DNA from: a virus
Reading direction: 5' to 3' (one strand)
Virus record (IMG/VR): IMGVR_UViG_3300043444_000128
Location: 1 to 32,635 of that record
DNA length: 32,635 bases
The stretch's first letter is position 1, and every line of letters begins with the position of its first letter. Below, piece by piece: positions 11,954 to 32,635 of the stretch. A program made the position numbers and the translations under genes. The notes beneath the pieces were generated by a model. That model saw nothing but the letters and a program-made list of their open reading frames with translations. It was not told where the DNA came from and ran no database searches.

Positions 11954-12075
11954 TCTAATTCAAATACAACGTTCAAAATCATTAACCCCATTCCGCTGGT
12001 TGAAATTAGTAAGCCAAAACCGTAGTTATCGTCTACGTGAACTTTGGCCTTAAACCTTTTAAATATTCGTTTCAT
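11944..12075 (-). CDS. Small hydrophobic protein (43 aa)
   Basis: The frame is MKRIFKRFKAKVHVDDNYGF... with a C-terminal hydrophobic stretch (GLLISTSGMGLMILNVVF). The ATG at 12075 lies 17 bp inside the end of the zinc-ribbon gene, and its stop overlaps the TTG start of the sigma factor, so its translation may help initiate the sigma gene. A basic N-terminus plus one weak membrane-like segment is all that can be said of function. Confidence 0.5.
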   Translation of the reverse strand: MKRIFKRFKAKVHVDDNYGFGLLISTSGMGLMILNVVFELDWN

Positions 12076-12472
12076 AAGTCGAAAGTATTTGTTTATATAA
12101 TTTTATTCTATCTATTCCTTTATTAATTGTATCTATGCGGTTATGCCATTTTGCGTAAAGCTCAGTCATTAAACCCATTTGACGTAAGGCGTTAATTGAG
12201 AATAAAACCATTTCCTTTCGTCTTTGCATACCGGACAACATACGATCAGCATCATCTACAAAACCAATTACGTTAGAATATTCTAAACCGTGTTTTTGTT
12301 CCATTCTGCTTAGCATCTCATCCAGATCAATTATAGCTCCTTTACCATTACATTCATCGCATTGTAATTCAACAACGTTTTGTGCATATGGCTCATAGTT
12401 GCCTGTTGTTTCTTCTAATACGTAACCTCTACCTTCGCAGCAGTTACATTGTAAATAGTTAATTGCAATCAT
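12059..12472 (-). CDS. DnaJ-type zinc-ribbon protein (137 aa)
   Basis: I place the start at 12472 (MIAINYLQCNCCEGRGYVLE) because the mapped promoter would begin transcription near 12490, which excludes the open frame further upstream. Two CxxCxGxG-like motifs (CNCCEGRG and CDECNGKG) flank about 30 residues, as in the DnaJ zinc finger, so it should bind one or two zinc ions. The C-terminal 90 residues are helical (LSRMEQKHGLEYSNVIGFVD). There is no J domain. It is the first gene of the promoter-12497 operon that also holds the sigma factor. Confidence 0.7.
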   Translation of the reverse strand: MIAINYLQCNCCEGRGYVLEETTGNYEPYAQNVVELQCDECNGKGAIIDLDEMLSRMEQKHGLEYSNVIGFVDDADRMLSGMQRRKEMVLFSINALRQMGLMTELYAKWHNRIDTINKGIDRIKLYKQILSTYETNI

Positions 12473-12496
12473 TGTTTTTGTTTTAATGTTATAGGA

Positions 12497-12525
12497 CAAA
12501 TATAATAATATTTTTAATTATACAA
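12497..12525 (-). promoter_or_regulatory. Bacteroidota-type promoter (middle operon)
   Basis: On the minus strand: TTG (12525-12523), an 18-bp AT-rich spacer, then TATATTTG (12504-12497), matching the -33 TTG and -7 TAnnTTTG boxes of Bacteroidota housekeeping promoters. Transcription should start near 12490, about 18 nt before the zinc-ribbon gene. The -33 box overlaps the last codons of the Xre-like regulator gene, which hints at possible local control. Confidence 0.75.
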
Positions 12526-12730
12526 CATTTTTTAAATAATTTGCTAATTTTTGTAATGTTGGTGCTGAAAGGTTTTTACCTCTTAGGAATAAAAATAAAT
12601 TCGACTGGTACATTTTAGCCTCTACGCTAAATGCAGTTAATGTCATTCCGCTTTTTTCTAAATACTGGATAAGAGCGGCACGAACAATTTCCGTACCGCT
12701 TCCAATAATTTCTAACTGTTTTCTGCTCAT
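12518..12730 (-). CDS. Xre-like helix-turn-helix regulator (70 aa)
   Basis: Residues about 15-65 fit a small Cro/Xre-type HTH: IVRAALIQYLEKSGMTLTAF, then SVEAKMYQSNLFLFLRGKNL, then SAPTLQKLANYLK. It should bind a DNA operator as a dimer. It is the last gene of its operon and its final codons overlap the -33 box of the next promoter, so it might regulate that promoter or the early promoters. With no integrase present, a true lysogeny repressor is less likely. Confidence 0.7.
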   Translation of the reverse strand: MSRKQLEIIGSGTEIVRAALIQYLEKSGMTLTAFSVEAKMYQSNLFLFLRGKNLSAPTLQKLANYLKNVV

Positions 12731-15232: not shown

Positions 15233-15756
15233 AGTGCATTTAAGATATCAATTTGACCTTGAGTTAATGCAAATGCTTTTTCTAAATTCTCACGCTTGTA
15301 AGATCCAGCTATAATTGCTTTTACTGCTTCTTGAAATCTTTTTTCGTCAATACTTGGTAATATCTTTTCTTTCTTTACTTGTTCTCCAGAAGCATCCGTG
15401 TCTTTGTCCGTTACTAATGCAAGGCTACTGGCTAATGCATATCTGCGGTAATAGGTTACTCCAGATCCAAACGACTGGTAATCATTCATACCTTTTAAAC
15501 TTACGCTTGGGATTTCAGTGCGACTTTCAAGGCTTTCTCCGCTTTCTATATGGAAAATAACGGTATCTAAGTAATTAACACCATCCTTTGAATTAAGCAA
15601 CTGTGTAAATCCTAATCCGTGTTTTTTTAATAGTGGATTGATTTTGTCAAATATTGTTGGAAGATCAGCATACGAGTAACCAAATCCTTGCGTTCCTTTG
15701 TGAATTACCGGAACCTCTTGCTGAAACGATGCCAGCGCTTTAAATAAATTTTTCAT
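15229..15756 (-). CDS. erf: ERF family single-strand annealing protein
   Basis: The start at 15756 (MKNLFKALASFQQEVPVIHK) is preferred because the promoter would start transcription near 15774, so the longer open frame is not transcribed. ERF family features are the N-terminal helix followed by GFGYSYADLPTIFDKINPLL, the strand run with NYLDTVIFHIESGESL, and FGSGVTYYRRYALASSLAL before a DKDTDAS acidic segment. ERF proteins anneal ssDNA and promote phage genome circularisation and recombination. At 175 aa it is near the usual length. First gene of its operon. Confidence 0.88.
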   Translation of the reverse strand: MKNLFKALASFQQEVPVIHKGTQGFGYSYADLPTIFDKINPLLKKHGLGFTQLLNSKDGVNYLDTVIFHIESGESLESRTEIPSVSLKGMNDYQSFGSGVTYYRRYALASSLALVTDKDTDASGEQVKKEKILPSIDEKRFQEAVKAIIAGSYKRENLEKAFALTQGQIDILNAL

Positions 15757-15780
15757 TGTTTTTAGTTTTGAATTATAGAA

Positions 15781-15809
15781 CAAATATAATATTATTTTTC
15801 AATATAAAA
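15781..15809 (-). promoter_or_regulatory. Bacteroidota-type promoter (recombination operon)
   Basis: The -7 box TATATTTG (15788-15781) is preceded by a spacer nearly identical to that of the 12497 and 20876 promoters. The -33 position holds TTT rather than TTG, so it may be somewhat weaker. It lies in the short gap between the 127-aa gene and erf; transcription should begin near 15774. Confidence 0.65.
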
Positions 15810-15828
15810 TAGTTTCCAAAAAATATTT

Positions 15829-17542: not shown

Positions 17543-18430
17543 TTAAAAAGGTGTTTTAAGTTGCACTGGTGGTTTTACTCTGAAATTCTTTAGCGGATCA
17601 ACTGCGTTAATTTCAAAACCAACACCGGAGTTAAAATTACAAATAATTGGCTCATTCAAAAGCGTATGCTTTCCGCCTGTTTCTGTATCCTTAACTTTTT
17701 CAACGTTGATCCAAGTTGAATATTTCCATTCTGGGTGCTTAATTAAACGGTGTATTACAAACATATCATCACATCGGTTTAGGAAAGCCTTGCCTCCTTC
17801 AATGTGATCCTTAAGCGGTGGTTTCAAATGTCCTTTCCAATCTCCGTCTTGATATAAATTTGCGTTTCTGCCGGATTCCGTGTTTGGATGGGTATTTATG
17901 TATAAAGTTTTTCCGGTACTATTTACAAACTGTCGGGCGTTATTCATAAAAGTATAATTGCCATCAAATGTCATTTGCCGATCAAGTCCCGTGAATGGAT
18001 CAATCAAACAAACATCCGCCTCTGATTGTACAAATAAATCAAACAACTCTTCTGGTTTATACAGCTTTGAATTGTCTACAAACGTAAAGAACTGTTCTAA
18101 ATATGCGGTGTGTCTGTGGATCTCATCGTAACTTAATTGCTTGAATGGTTTACCGGAATACATCTGTACGAGATCTCTAAGTATCTGGCCCTTTTGGTTT
18201 TCTCCGGACCATAAACAAAAACTTAATCCGTGTTGTAATGCGAGGTTTAAAAAGTACCAATTAATCCAGTACGTCTTACCTACGTTGTCGTGGCCTAAAA
18301 TGATGTTTACTTGTTTAGGTTTGAATTTTAAGTGCTCGTCTAAATAGCATCCGATACCTAAACCCTGTTTGATTTTTCCGTCTTTATAATCCAGTAAATA
18401 CTGAATTGAATCACCCTTGTTTTTTAGCAT
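17543..18430 (-). CDS. RecA/DnaB-type replicative helicase domain ATPase
   Basis: The 295-aa protein is a compact RecA-fold ATPase: Walker A GHDNVGKT (46-53), a following LWSGENQKGQI segment (73-83), Walker B VCLIDPFTGLD (140-150) and a sensor-type LYINTHPNTESG (176-187). This fits DnaB/Twinkle-like helicases without a primase or N-terminal domain. It is coupled (20-bp overlap) to the replication-initiator-like gene, so the pair probably loads and drives the replication fork. DnaB-like versus RepA-like cannot be decided by eye. Confidence 0.78.
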   Translation of the reverse strand: MLKNKGDSIQYLLDYKDGKIKQGLGIGCYLDEHLKFKPKQVNIILGHDNVGKTYWINWYFLNLALQHGLSFCLWSGENQKGQILRDLVQMYSGKPFKQLSYDEIHRHTAYLEQFFTFVDNSKLYKPEELFDLFVQSEADVCLIDPFTGLDRQMTFDGNYTFMNNARQFVNSTGKTLYINTHPNTESGRNANLYQDGDWKGHLKPPLKDHIEGGKAFLNRCDDMFVIHRLIKHPEWKYSTWINVEKVKDTETGGKHTLLNEPIICNFNSGVGFEINAVDPLKNFRVKPPVQLKTPF

Positions 18431-18980
18431 ATTGTCTTAGTATTTGTAATTCTCTTGGTTCTTCTATTTCGGTTGTCTTTTTGTTTTTACTCAACCACTT
18501 ATTAGCTGTCAAATATAAGGAAGTATAATTTTTATTTCCCTTATAATTTTGAATTGCATCTAAAACTTCATCAATCTCAGTAATGGAATATTTATCCAAT
18601 AGCTTTTCAACATCAGCATTTGATATAGACAAGTGAGCGAAGCTTCTATATATATCTTTAGATATAACTTTATCTTTATCTTTTTCTTTATCGGCATTTT
18701 TAGCATCATTTGGTATGCGGTCGGATGCGGTGGCATCCCATCGCTTACGTGCGTTTTCGCTGTTACGTTTACAAATGTCCTCGTATTTTTGTAGATCTCT
18801 TTTTAAAGTTTGTTTTATAGGTTCAAAAACTACTTCTGTAAACTGATCACTTTCAGGGTTGTTATCATTAACATACTCAAGTATATGTTTAAATAACTTA
18901 CCAGCTTGTTCATCGCTTAATTTGTTTATCGTATGGATTAAATCCGAATACAGTATAAACCCTTTTTTGTCTTTTGCCAT
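18411..18980 (-). CDS. Replication initiation / helicase-loading-like protein (189 aa)
   Basis: The N-terminal about 80 residues (KGFILYSDLIHTINKLSDEQ, then AGKLFKHILEYV and VVFEPIKQTLKRDLQKYEDI) match a domain common at the start of Bacteroidota phage replication proteins (DUF6291-type, from memory). A Lys/Asp-rich linker follows (ADKEKDKDKVISKD), then a helical C-terminal region with NYTSLYLTANKWLSK, as in DnaD-like or O-like initiators. It begins the replication operon behind a promoter and a hairpin leader. Confidence 0.65.
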   Translation of the reverse strand: MAKDKKGFILYSDLIHTINKLSDEQAGKLFKHILEYVNDNNPESDQFTEVVFEPIKQTLKRDLQKYEDICKRNSENARKRWDATASDRIPNDAKNADKEKDKDKVISKDIYRSFAHLSISNADVEKLLDKYSITEIDEVLDAIQNYKGNKNYTSLYLTANKWLSKNKKTTEIEEPRELQILRQYAKKQG

Positions 18981-18996
18981 TTTACTGCCTTAAAAT

Positions 18997-19048
18997 AAAA
19001 AAGCCCTTTCAGTGTTCCCGAGGCAGCGGTACTAACCAAAAGAGCTTT
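18997..19048 (-). terminator. Terminator-like hairpin in the leader of the replication operon
   Basis: On the minus strand AAAGCTCTTT (19048-19039) pairs with AAAGGGCTTT (19009-19000), a 10-bp stem with one G-U, a 29-nt loop and then a T6 run (19002-18997). It lies between the predicted start site (about 19075) and the gene starting at 18980. It could end the upstream operon, act as an attenuator, or terminate a short RNA of about 75 nt. Confidence 0.65.
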
Positions 19049-19081
19049 CAATAATGTTTTTTCGTGGCCTGCCTGCCGAAA

Positions 19082-19113
19082 CAAATATAATAATTATTTT
19101 AATAACTTATCAA
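19082..19113 (-). promoter_or_regulatory. Bacteroidota-type promoter (replication operon)
   Basis: TTG (19113-19111), a 21-bp AT-rich spacer and TATATTTG (19089-19082) on the minus strand. The -33 box and spacer overlap the final codons of the 96-aa gene. Expected start near 19075, giving a leader of about 95 nt before the initiator gene. Confidence 0.7.
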
Positions 19114-19384
19114 AAGTAAAGTTTTCTTTTACCCATTGTCTAAATGCACGTTGAATGTCTATCTGTTGGTTCTGAGCATCTGCATCAGCACTGTCAATTA
19201 TTAGCCTATCCGTTTTTCTGATCTCATCCAGAAACATATTTGCTCGGCGTTTGACGTTCTTTTTAAAGATATTAGCATCGTTAAGATCTTCAATGTAATC
19301 CCCAAGCACTGGGAGTATTGCAGTTAGTACAATAAGCTTTTCTAAATTACGCTTTACTGCTTCGGTGTATTCTTCTTTTTCCAT
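19094..19384 (-). CDS. Hypothetical helical protein (96 aa)
   Basis: The product begins MEKEEYTEAVKRNLEKLIVL and is all-helical with a basic middle (FKKNVKRRANMFLDEIRKTD). It is the last gene of the first early operon. No family recognised; small early phage proteins of this kind often target host functions, but nothing here shows which. Confidence 0.55.
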   Translation of the reverse strand: MEKEEYTEAVKRNLEKLIVLTAILPVLGDYIEDLNDANIFKKNVKRRANMFLDEIRKTDRLIIDSADADAQNQQIDIQRAFRQWVKENFTFDKLLK

Positions 19385-20686: not shown

Positions 20687-20853
20687 TATTTCTGTGTTAT
20701 GTGGTTAATTAATTCGTTTATTTCTTGCCAAATAGCGTAGTGTCTTTTAGTAACTGCGTGTAAGTTTCCGTTTGCTTCACGCGCTTCTAAATACTCCTCC
20801 CAAAGTTGACGTTCTCTGGCTTGGATGAACTGGATAATTTCGTTTGCTTTCAT
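20686..20853 (-). CDS. First early gene, small protein (55 aa)
   Basis: The frame is MKANEIIQFIQARERQLWEE... through ...INELINHITQK, a charged helical protein. Its start lies about 16 nt downstream of the predicted transcription start of the early promoter at 20876-20904, and its TAA overlaps the next ATG. This placement makes it the first product expected after infection. No domain recognised. Confidence 0.65.
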   Translation of the reverse strand: MKANEIIQFIQARERQLWEEYLEAREANGNLHAVTKRHYAIWQEINELINHITQK

Positions 20854-20875
20854 AGTATTGTTTTAAATGTTTAGA

Positions 20876-20904
20876 CAAAACTAATATTATTTTTTAATAT
20901 ACAA
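20876..20904 (-). promoter_or_regulatory. Bacteroidota-type early promoter
   Basis: TTG (20904-20902), an 18-bp AT-rich spacer and TAGTTTTG (20883-20876) on the minus strand, with predicted start near 20869. It lies at the head of the leftward early operon and shares its spacer sequence with the promoters at 12497 and 15781. Confidence 0.72.
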
Positions 20905-21200
20905 GCTATTTTTTTAAAATATTTTTTTCAATCTTAATGTTTTACCCTGATTTTGTAACAAAGTTTGTCAGGTTTTACCCTTATTTTATACATAAGGTTC
21001 GTATTGTGTATAGATTTTGGCGTTTTGTATACATAAGATTGCACAACTGCCTGAATTTTTCCGAATTATTAATGCAAATAAAACACTATAAAGTGGGAAT
21101 TTTACCGATTATGTCCAGTTTTTTCAACTATAAAGCGGACAAATAGCCAAGTATTTTAAGCTTAAAAGTTGACATTCTCGATTCGCGAATCAAGGATAAC
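20905..21200. other. Gene-free control region, candidate replication origin
   Basis: No convincing gene is seen here. It contains a very AT-rich block (about 20906-20937), an imperfect direct repeat GTTTTACCCTgATTTTgTA (20939-20957) and GTTTTACCCTtATTTTaTA (20972-20990), a second pair TATACATAAGgTT (20987-20999) and TATACATAAGaTT (21028-21040), a third pair ACTATAAAGyGG (21085-21096 and 21127-21138), and two perfect palindromes, TTTTAAGCTTAAAA (21154-21167) and GATTCGCGAATC (21180-21191). Iteron-like repeats beside an AT-rich block at the only large gap fit an origin and/or operator cluster. Confidence 0.5.
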
Positions 21201-31673: not shown

Positions 31674-32635
31674 TTATAATGTTGCGTTTTCTACTCTGTT
31701 GCGATCTAAACTTTGAGCAGTAGTTACCTGTCCAGAAACAACGTAAGCTTGTACAGGAGTTTGTTGTAATTGCGCTAATTGGTTTATACCAGAGTTACCT
31801 ACCACATTAAACTGCGGAGCTTGTGCTTGCATACCACCACCTGCTGATCCTCCGCCTCCGCCAAGTGATGGAGGTGTTGGAGTGCTTCCGCCACCAAGAC
31901 TTTGTAACGCTTTAGCAGTTGCCGCAATATTTCCTGCAATACCAATACCTGTAGATATGTTATTCATAGCAATTACAGGAATAGCCGCAGCTCCTGAAGT
32001 AGCAATAGCTTGTGGCGTTGCCAATGCTGCGACATTTGCTGCTTTGTTAGCAATAATCATTTTAGCAATACCAATGGCAGATTCTGCAATGACCGCTGCC
32101 TTTTGTACTCCTTTAGATTTTTCAAATACACCTTTGATTAAAGCAACTCCTTGAGATGCTACTTCCAAGCCTTGCATCTGGATTGCTCTCTTTTGCTCTT
32201 CTACTGCCTTAGCTGCTGCAATTTCTTCTTCTGCTGCCTTTGCATCCAGTTCTTTTTTCTTTTCCTTAGCTGCTTTATCTAAATCGTATGCCTGTTGTTG
32301 ATATTTGACATTGATGTCATTCATCTCATTCATTTTGGCAATCTCAATTTGCTGAAGTGCATCTGCATTGCCTTGAGCTAAAGTTTCAAGTTCAAAGTAT
32401 TTATCTTGAACCGCTAAAAGTTCTCTATCTTGCTCTGATAAGGTATTTAGGTAATTTTGTTCTGCAATATCTTCGAGTTTTTGCTGTAACTCGTTTTCTT
32501 TTTCAATAGCAATACGTTTGGCTTCAGCATCGCTTTTAGCTATAAGTTCTGCTTGTGCTTTTCTTTCTTCTTTAGCTTTTTCGTTTGCTTCTTTGCGTTG
32601 CTCCGCTACCTTTTCACTTGCTTCTTTTGCTGCTT
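31674..32635 (-). CDS. Tail tape measure protein, C-terminal part (runs off right end)
   Basis: This is the remainder of the 683-aa gene that begins at 1330, read through the contig ends; bases 32396-32635 duplicate 1-240. It has a Lys/Glu/Ala-rich coiled coil, then a hydrophobic Ala/Ile-rich region (GIAKMIIANKAANVAALATP, AIPVIAMNNISTGIGIAGNI), a Gly-rich linker and a conserved-looking tail ending VVSGQVTTAQSLDRNRVENA, common at the C-terminus of tape measure proteins in this phage group. The stop is TAA at 31674, 21 bp before the protease gene. Confidence 0.85.
   Translation of the reverse strand, partial: AAKEASEKVAEQRKEANEKAKEERKAQAELIAKSDAEAKRIAIEKENELQQKLEDIAEQNYLNTLSEQDRELLAVQDKYFELETLAQGNADALQQIEIAKMNEMNDINVKYQQQAYDLDKAAKEKKKELDAKAAEEEIAAAKAVEEQKRAIQMQGLEVASQGVALIKGVFEKSKGVQKAAVIAESAIGIAKMIIANKAANVAALATPQAIATSGAAAIPVIAMNNISTGIGIAGNIAATAKALQSLGGGSTPTPPSLGGGGGSAGGGMQAQAPQFNVVGNSGINQLAQLQQTPVQAYVVSGQVTTAQSLDRNRVENATL
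32396..32635. repeat. Terminal direct repeat (right copy)
   Basis: Right-hand copy of bases 1-240, with T at 32523 where the left copy has C at 128. It should be removed before annotation so the genome is counted once. Confidence 0.93.

Follow-up and report, generated by a model that had tools for sequence, protein, structure and literature searches.

A predicted leader RNA with kissing hairpin loops ahead of the replication genes of phages of Flavobacterium-like bacteria

Complementary hairpin loops control replication in ColE1 (RNAI/RNAII) and in the pT181 attenuator, where the two partners are transcribed from opposite strands. Among phages, the CI RNA of P4, as outlined in PMC4825925, pairs with an upstream (seqA) and a downstream (seqC) sequence and controls replication genes; the same paper describes short and read-through forms of IsrK in Gifsy-1. 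The c4 RNA blocks a start site and has complementarity to the ribosome-binding region of the target, according to PMC12197685, and the family is named as RF01695 in PMC2864571. RNA control in the phages of Bacteroidota is little known, and a search of titles and the start of abstracts in the open-licence PMC literature on phage RNA or DUF6291 found no description of the RNA presented here.

The locus belongs to the virus record IMGVR_UViG_3300043444_000128 of IMG/VR, whose positions 1 to 32,635 were analysed as one stretch of 32,635 nucleotides (the window). The 40 bases at its start are found again 32,395 bases further along (1-240 versus 32396-32635); an exact terminal repeat of 21-300 bases is absent, so that the recurrence represents a near-exact overlap; the window is probably a circularly permuted or complete phage genome of about 32.4 kb. 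Among the 39 distinct window ORFs that were scanned against PHROGs there was no integrase and no sign of lysogeny genes. On the minus strand, the gene at 18411..18980 encodes a DUF6291 protein (PF19808, 1.4e-25) with weak PHROG matches to a primosomal protein (phrog_6451, 6.3e-6) and a replisome organizer (phrog_13246, 8.5e-5), and the gene at 17543..18430 of the same operon and strand encodes a helicase-like partner (DNA primase/helicase, phrog_18375 / phrog_239, about 1e-17). These weak matches and the helicase-like neighbour are the grounds on which the former is presumed to be a replication initiator or primosomal protein; DUF6291 itself is a Pfam family of unknown function. Elsewhere, positions 12059-12499 (minus strand) show a weak match to a Q-like antitermination protein (phrog_127, 2.4e-5), and a 72-nt promoter plus 5' leader occurs three times (12469-12540, 15753-15824, 20850-20921), each copy near a start codon; identity to the first copy is 78% and 61% for the other two.

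Upstream of the presumed initiator gene, on the minus strand, a first-pass annotation had placed a promoter box, a 10-bp stem with a 29-nt loop, a T6 run and a start codon 17 bp beyond, and all of these coordinates proved correct. The Bacteroidota-type promoter (19082..19113) comprises TTG(A) at 19113 and TATATTTG at 19089-19082, the box that is conserved upstream of X. Then comes a 5' hairpin, P1 (19060..19081), with a TTTC/GAAA outer stem, an AC bulge and the pairing of GGC (19077-19075) with GCC (19068-19066); its entire loop is AGGCAG, here called X (19069..19074). A conserved A/T-rich linker, AAACATTATTG (19049..19059; alignments A1, A3 and A5), leads to the terminator-like hairpin (19000..19048), whose arms AAAGCTCTTT (19048-19039) and AAAGGGCTTT (19009-19000) form 10 bp including one G-U pair. 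The 29-nt loop (19038-19010) reads AGTA, CCG, CTGCCT, CGG and GAA in this order and forms the P3 region (19015..19033): AGTA (19033-19030) faces GAA (19017-19015), presumably as a loop-E-like motif, beneath a 3-bp stem of CCG (19029-19027) and CGG (19020-19018), and the entire apical loop, X' (CTGCCT, 19021..19026), is the exact complement of X. The T6 run (18997..19002) overlaps the 3' arm, and between it and the ATG at 18980, 17 bp past 18997, a third copy of AGGCAG, X3 (18985..18990), lies 4 nt ahead of the start codon and is likewise complementary to X'. A pairing of GGCAGGCAGG with CTGCC had previously been proposed as an alternative fold. The pairing can indeed form, but rather than competing with the stem it joins two loops, can coexist with the stem and is kept by compensatory change. 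Its loop-to-loop nature, the AGTA/GAA motif under the apical hairpin and X3 were absent from the earlier account.

Taken by itself, the window makes a modest case for the element. Its fold is no more stable than dinucleotide shuffles (z = -0.55), and the single-sequence fold was for that reason dropped as evidence; a stock terminator scan of the window (loop 3-8) did not have the hairpin among its matches. A gene-blind detector, which looks for a hairpin and a terminator with mutually complementary loops, returned one match on the gene strand of the window and none on the other, versus 0.15 per strand in 60 shuffles. Relatives were retrieved with the DUF6291 protein (80 loci), with the helicase-like protein (80 loci, 76 of them under new locus ids), with the protein of locus L114 (51 loci) and with a DNA pattern modelled on the type-B fold described below, X3 excluded (76 stretches). 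Several loci come from near-identical contigs and are not independent; the counts of X3 and of promoters given below refer to distinct element sequences only. The detector found the arrangement on the gene strand in 61/80, 67/76 and 43/51 of the replication-gene loci and on the opposite strand of the same loci in 0/80, 0/76 and 0/51. With these relatives, the predicted element is far beyond chance.

The relatives follow different builds. Type A has a P1 stem of 5-6 bp, an X of 8 nt and an X' hairpin between TGAA and GGAT, whereas in type B, the build of the window, the P1 and apical loops are 6-7 nt long and consist wholly of X and X', with AGTA/GAA beneath the apical hairpin. After 18 of 79 upstream sequences had been set aside by eye, the folds were compared in alignments, of which A3 and A1 are small; A4 omits L078 and four sequences with X = GAGTCTCA (L046, L015, L050, L076), which MAFFT shifted by one base, and the rows of A5 were picked for the presence of X3, the near-identical L222 not being among them. 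In type A (32 sequences), the 28 proposed pairs are paired in 95.6% of cells and 24 of them show changes on both sides. Such cells number 213, versus 62 in shuffles, none of 500 shuffles reaches any of five measures, and sliding the structure by 1-3 columns lowers pairing to 33-46%. By helix, pairing amounts to 83.7% in P1, 97.3% in the kissing helix, 100% in the terminator (10 pairs) and 99.2% in the apical stem, with both-sided changes in 6/6, 6/8, 8/10 and 4/4 pairs, respectively; few stretches are as well conserved as the linker. The 20 sequences of type B have 97.2% of cells paired, and both-sided changes affect 12 of 20 pairs. The kissing helix is paired throughout (100%), with two of its six pairs changed; the terminator stem, of which seven pairs are aligned, reaches 97.0%; compensatory changes occur in all four aligned pairs of P1 and all three of the P3 stem, and AGTA is invariant in A5. 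Covariation in related phages, which the first-pass annotation had named as a check on its own reading, is thus present in both builds. Type A, type B and the detector all yield two hairpin loops with conserved complementarity, as in a kissing interaction, and the stable stem is followed by a U-run, as in an intrinsic terminator.

A covariance model of type A (R1) gave 57 matches in 99 sources and 35 in 63 sources; of two sets of 13 and 17 records, 6 and 9, respectively, had a match, always as a single copy. For model R2, RNAalifold recovered just part of the fold, and the searches used R1. Among 395 genomes of the class of G013 there were 0 matches with R1, a weak test in which 10 candidates per listed genome were scored. 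Further elements were seen at individual loci. A second type-B-like element, with X = AATGCAG, sits upstream of the type-A element that precedes the replication gene at L038 (2142), L041 (705), L049 (2168) and L052 (2187), and an element at L264 (3217) has a 10-nt complementary loop pair, GCGTGGAAAC. A locus retrieved through a DUF6291 match in a GTDB genome, L167, carries a plausible element at 1392 (minus strand; X = CTCGAC), which would belong either to a prophage or to a phage contig that had been binned with a bacterium.

Of 130 distinct elements, 124 have a TAnnTTTG box no more than 45 nt upstream of X and 123 have it 6-12 nt before X, at a place where about 0.04 boxes per element would be expected; this count treats six X types (AATAACA, AGTTAT, ATAACT, GGTAAAT, TAATTGT, TTGATC) as chance matches. 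The Bacteroides -33/-7 consensus, as given in PMC7366714, is TTTG / TAnnTTTG. The fixed spacing bears out the earlier view of promoter and terminator-like hairpin as a single leader unit. From this spacing, the predicted RNA very probably starts at P1, and the same fixed distance makes a transcript of about 75 nt, with its 5' end near 19075 and its 3' end at 18997, very plausible.

What is new here is X3, the third copy 4 nt before the start codon. The count covered the sequence between the U-run and a point 15 bases from the first ATG and required at least 6 nt of the own X. By this measure the own X is present in 42 of 60 type-B elements, covering 7 of 12 X types, versus 0 of 649 when X was swapped between types. 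The other elements, including two chance matches judged by eye, contain it in 3 of 81 cases, all CCTTCGAC (swapped, 7/2469). It is in these elements and in the window that complementarity to the start region of the downstream gene is found within the same transcript. Two in-frame ATGs flank X3 in the GTTGCAG type, and an earlier count of 26/60, which stopped at the first ATG, missed this type and was too low. Two variable X3 columns in A5 change together with X'; the 100% pairing of X3 with X' in that alignment follows from the selection of its rows for X3. Other arrangements show the same correspondence at a distance or in mixed builds. At L011, L012, L014, L019, L020 and L111, the element lies 1.88 kb upstream of the DUF6291 gene, with three genes in between in L012 (DUF6378, thymidylate synthase, MazG-like), and X3 = X = GTGCAG is found 4 nt before the DUF6291 ATG and is missing before the gene nearest the element. 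At L004/L121/L155, a type-A element is followed by a type-B-like tail carrying CTTCGAC, which matches its own type-A X, and in a third build read by eye (L058/L061), AAATCGAC serves as X and X3 with GTCGATTT between.

X3 is missing near the first ATG in 18 of 60 type-B elements, including L192, L194 and L019, whose element is that of the 1.88-kb lineage or, in L194, resembles that lineage in the next gene, and next to the first start it is missing in 78 of 81 non-type-B elements. Targets of X at other gene starts were considered and rejected: a whole-contig scan covered 24 contigs and the window, with the element located in 20 contigs and the window, and in the 14 type-A contigs read over their full length X occurred at no first-ATG gene start. 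As the scan used the first ATG only, known X3 copies in records such as G002 and G417 went unreported. Lying past the U-run, X3 cannot act on that terminator; its position at the start codon points to translation and suggests that the element acts on translation as well. Its absence from most type-A and many type-B elements means that start-site pairing cannot be the shared function, which may be only that of a folded, self-locking terminator.

The comparison among relatives demonstrates a conserved promoter, a predicted P1 and a terminator-like hairpin with a kissing X:X' contact and a U-run, ahead of the replication module; in the type of the window, it also demonstrates the same 6-7 nt (X3) at the putative initiator start codon, covarying with X and X'. 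With moderate confidence, we read this arrangement as a leader and small RNA of about 75 nt that limits initiator output both by termination and by pairing of X' at the initiator start site. Most transcripts would stop at the U-run and yield a stable small RNA, and those that read through would encode initiator and helicase. X' would pair with X3, either as part of the free small RNA acting in trans or inside the read-through mRNA itself, and reduce translation initiation, and the P1 loop X would act as a built-in copy of the target that keeps X' occupied until displaced. Because RNA and initiator share one promoter, initiator output would limit itself as the number of genome copies grows. Double limitation of the initiator is favoured by the presence of X3 at the start codon and of its complement X' in the same leader; that the control is repression, rather than relief as in IsrK, is a guess. 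For the type-B X words tried, the energies of X:X' and X':X3 range from -6.0 to -10.5 kcal/mol; with identical sequences the two helices have like energies, so that geometry or timing must decide between them. Against start-site pairing, the intramolecular X:X' contact should win over X':X3.

A transcription attenuator acting purely in cis, in which the kissing contact helps or delays the terminator to give a fixed or factor-dependent read-through and X3 is incidental or a relic, is possible if somewhat doubtful. It accords with the fully paired terminator arms of type A and with the fact that nearly all type-A elements have every part except X3, and the putative Q-like protein of the window, which could act on the leader, could provide a factor; yet it leaves unexplained why X3 tracks X in seven X types, why it matches at 1.88 kb in one lineage and why it recurs where a type-B tail follows a type-A element. 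A small RNA acting in trans mostly on host or other phage RNAs, with the initiator start as just one target, would suit an element with its own promoter and terminator, a compact fold and a conserved linker and internal loop, which moreover precedes varied genes, e.g., small ORFs in L083, L092 and L093. We nevertheless regard such a role as unlikely, given the lack of X at first-ATG gene starts in the 14 type-A contigs and the position of the element in or beside the replication module at the sampled loci, which, apart from the DNA-pattern set, were sampled by replication genes.

Origins are often located around the initiator gene, and three short copies around this gene, X and X3 direct and X' inverted, could serve the initiator as DNA sites, whether iterons or operators, or mark an origin. 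This reading is very improbable and was rejected, as X is uncoupled from the protein: the initiators of the window and L003 are 89% identical, yet X is AGGCAG in one and GAAGCAG in the other, whereas the protein of L088, still DUF6291 by Pfam, aligns significantly by BLASTP over a short C-terminal stretch only and yet goes with AGGCAG. The stems around X and X' covary too. That the hairpin is an ordinary intrinsic terminator of the upstream gene next to a chance promoter is hardly credible; the upstream ORF does end at 19094, but the conserved promoter spacing and the kissing helix do not fit this view, already disfavoured by covariation.

An extension of the preferred reading, double limitation of the initiator, would make the X types incompatibility groups among Bacteroidota phages, in a system of copy number and superinfection: the leader RNA would silence the initiator of an incoming phage with the same X, and a different X would escape. 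Loop sequences play such a role in plasmids, and one lineage fits: the elements of L029/L032/L033/L056 versus L030/L031/L035 differ by 0-6% outside X/X' and at 3 of 8 positions in X and 2 of 8 in X'. Against this idea, which we consider rather unlikely, X overall diverges no faster than the P1 and P3 stems (mean distance 0.37 for X, 0.43 for P1 and 0.54 for P3), and general diversifying selection on X was rejected on these values.

The element is also found in cultured phages. Cellulophaga phage phi18:3 has a type-A element with X CTTCTGAC, read by eye, and phi19:3, phi13:2 and, by DNA match, phi46:3 have a weaker element with X CTCTCAC. The Flavobacterium phages lillamy, filifjonk, snork, stinky and hemulen have the common X GTGAGACG, and the two elemo records (Flavobacterium) examined have X = TGAGAGC; in the lillamy and elemo groups, a small ORF separates the element from the replication gene, and a relaxed detector was needed for the A/T-rich P1 stems. 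The retrieved stretches of phage 11b, Riemerella CRP19 and Maribacter Panino contained no convincing element. Judged by sequence comparison, many phages of Flavobacterium-like bacteria have conserved the element, and it probably controls the amount of replication protein made. Compensatory changes give very strong evidence for this structured RNA, which is widespread and sits at the switch to replication. Its presence in cultured phages makes structure, termination and start-site control directly testable, and the triplet X / X' / X3 lends itself to a clean design of three-way compensatory mutations.

How the element relates to described families was examined with Rfam, which gave no match at the gathering threshold in the window or in 15 loci. 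Below this threshold (48.1 bits), RT-14 (RF02921) scored 31.7 bits at 19001-19121 (minus strand) of the window and 30.1 bits in L258. RT-14 and the present element share a long stem with a UUAGUA...GAA motif and an A-rich linker; membership was rejected on the score and because the 5' half of RT-14 is a different nested hairpin. RT-14 is presumably associated with a reverse transcriptase gene, as its name implies. The sole genome match to RT-14, itself sub-threshold, lies near an ORF resembling a reverse transcriptase by eye (L360), and no reverse transcriptase was found among the window ORFs scanned. The AGTA/GAA hairpin is possibly an RNA module common to RT-14 and the window. The covariance model of c4 (RF01695) had no match in the leader region at E up to 10. 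Like c4 of phages P1/P7, the predicted small RNA is complementary to the start region of a target, but the candidate target here is a replication gene and that of c4 an antirepressor. With IsrK it would share a short RNA that ends at a terminator and a read-through form that is the mRNA acted on; unlike it, IsrK activates, belongs to another host group and has a target that feeds an antiterminator. Both kissing loops lie in one RNA here, in contrast to ColE1 and pT181. As in P4 CI, one segment, X', is complementary to an upstream (X) and a downstream (X3) copy within one leader before replication genes, the P4 counterpart of X' being seqB. The P4 RNA is processed and acts by termination, and the present element differs from it in kissing-loop matches of 6-8 nt, a hairpin like that of an intrinsic terminator and a Bacteroidota promoter. 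A member of no family tested, the predicted element is in its layout of the same kind as P4 CI, c4 and IsrK.
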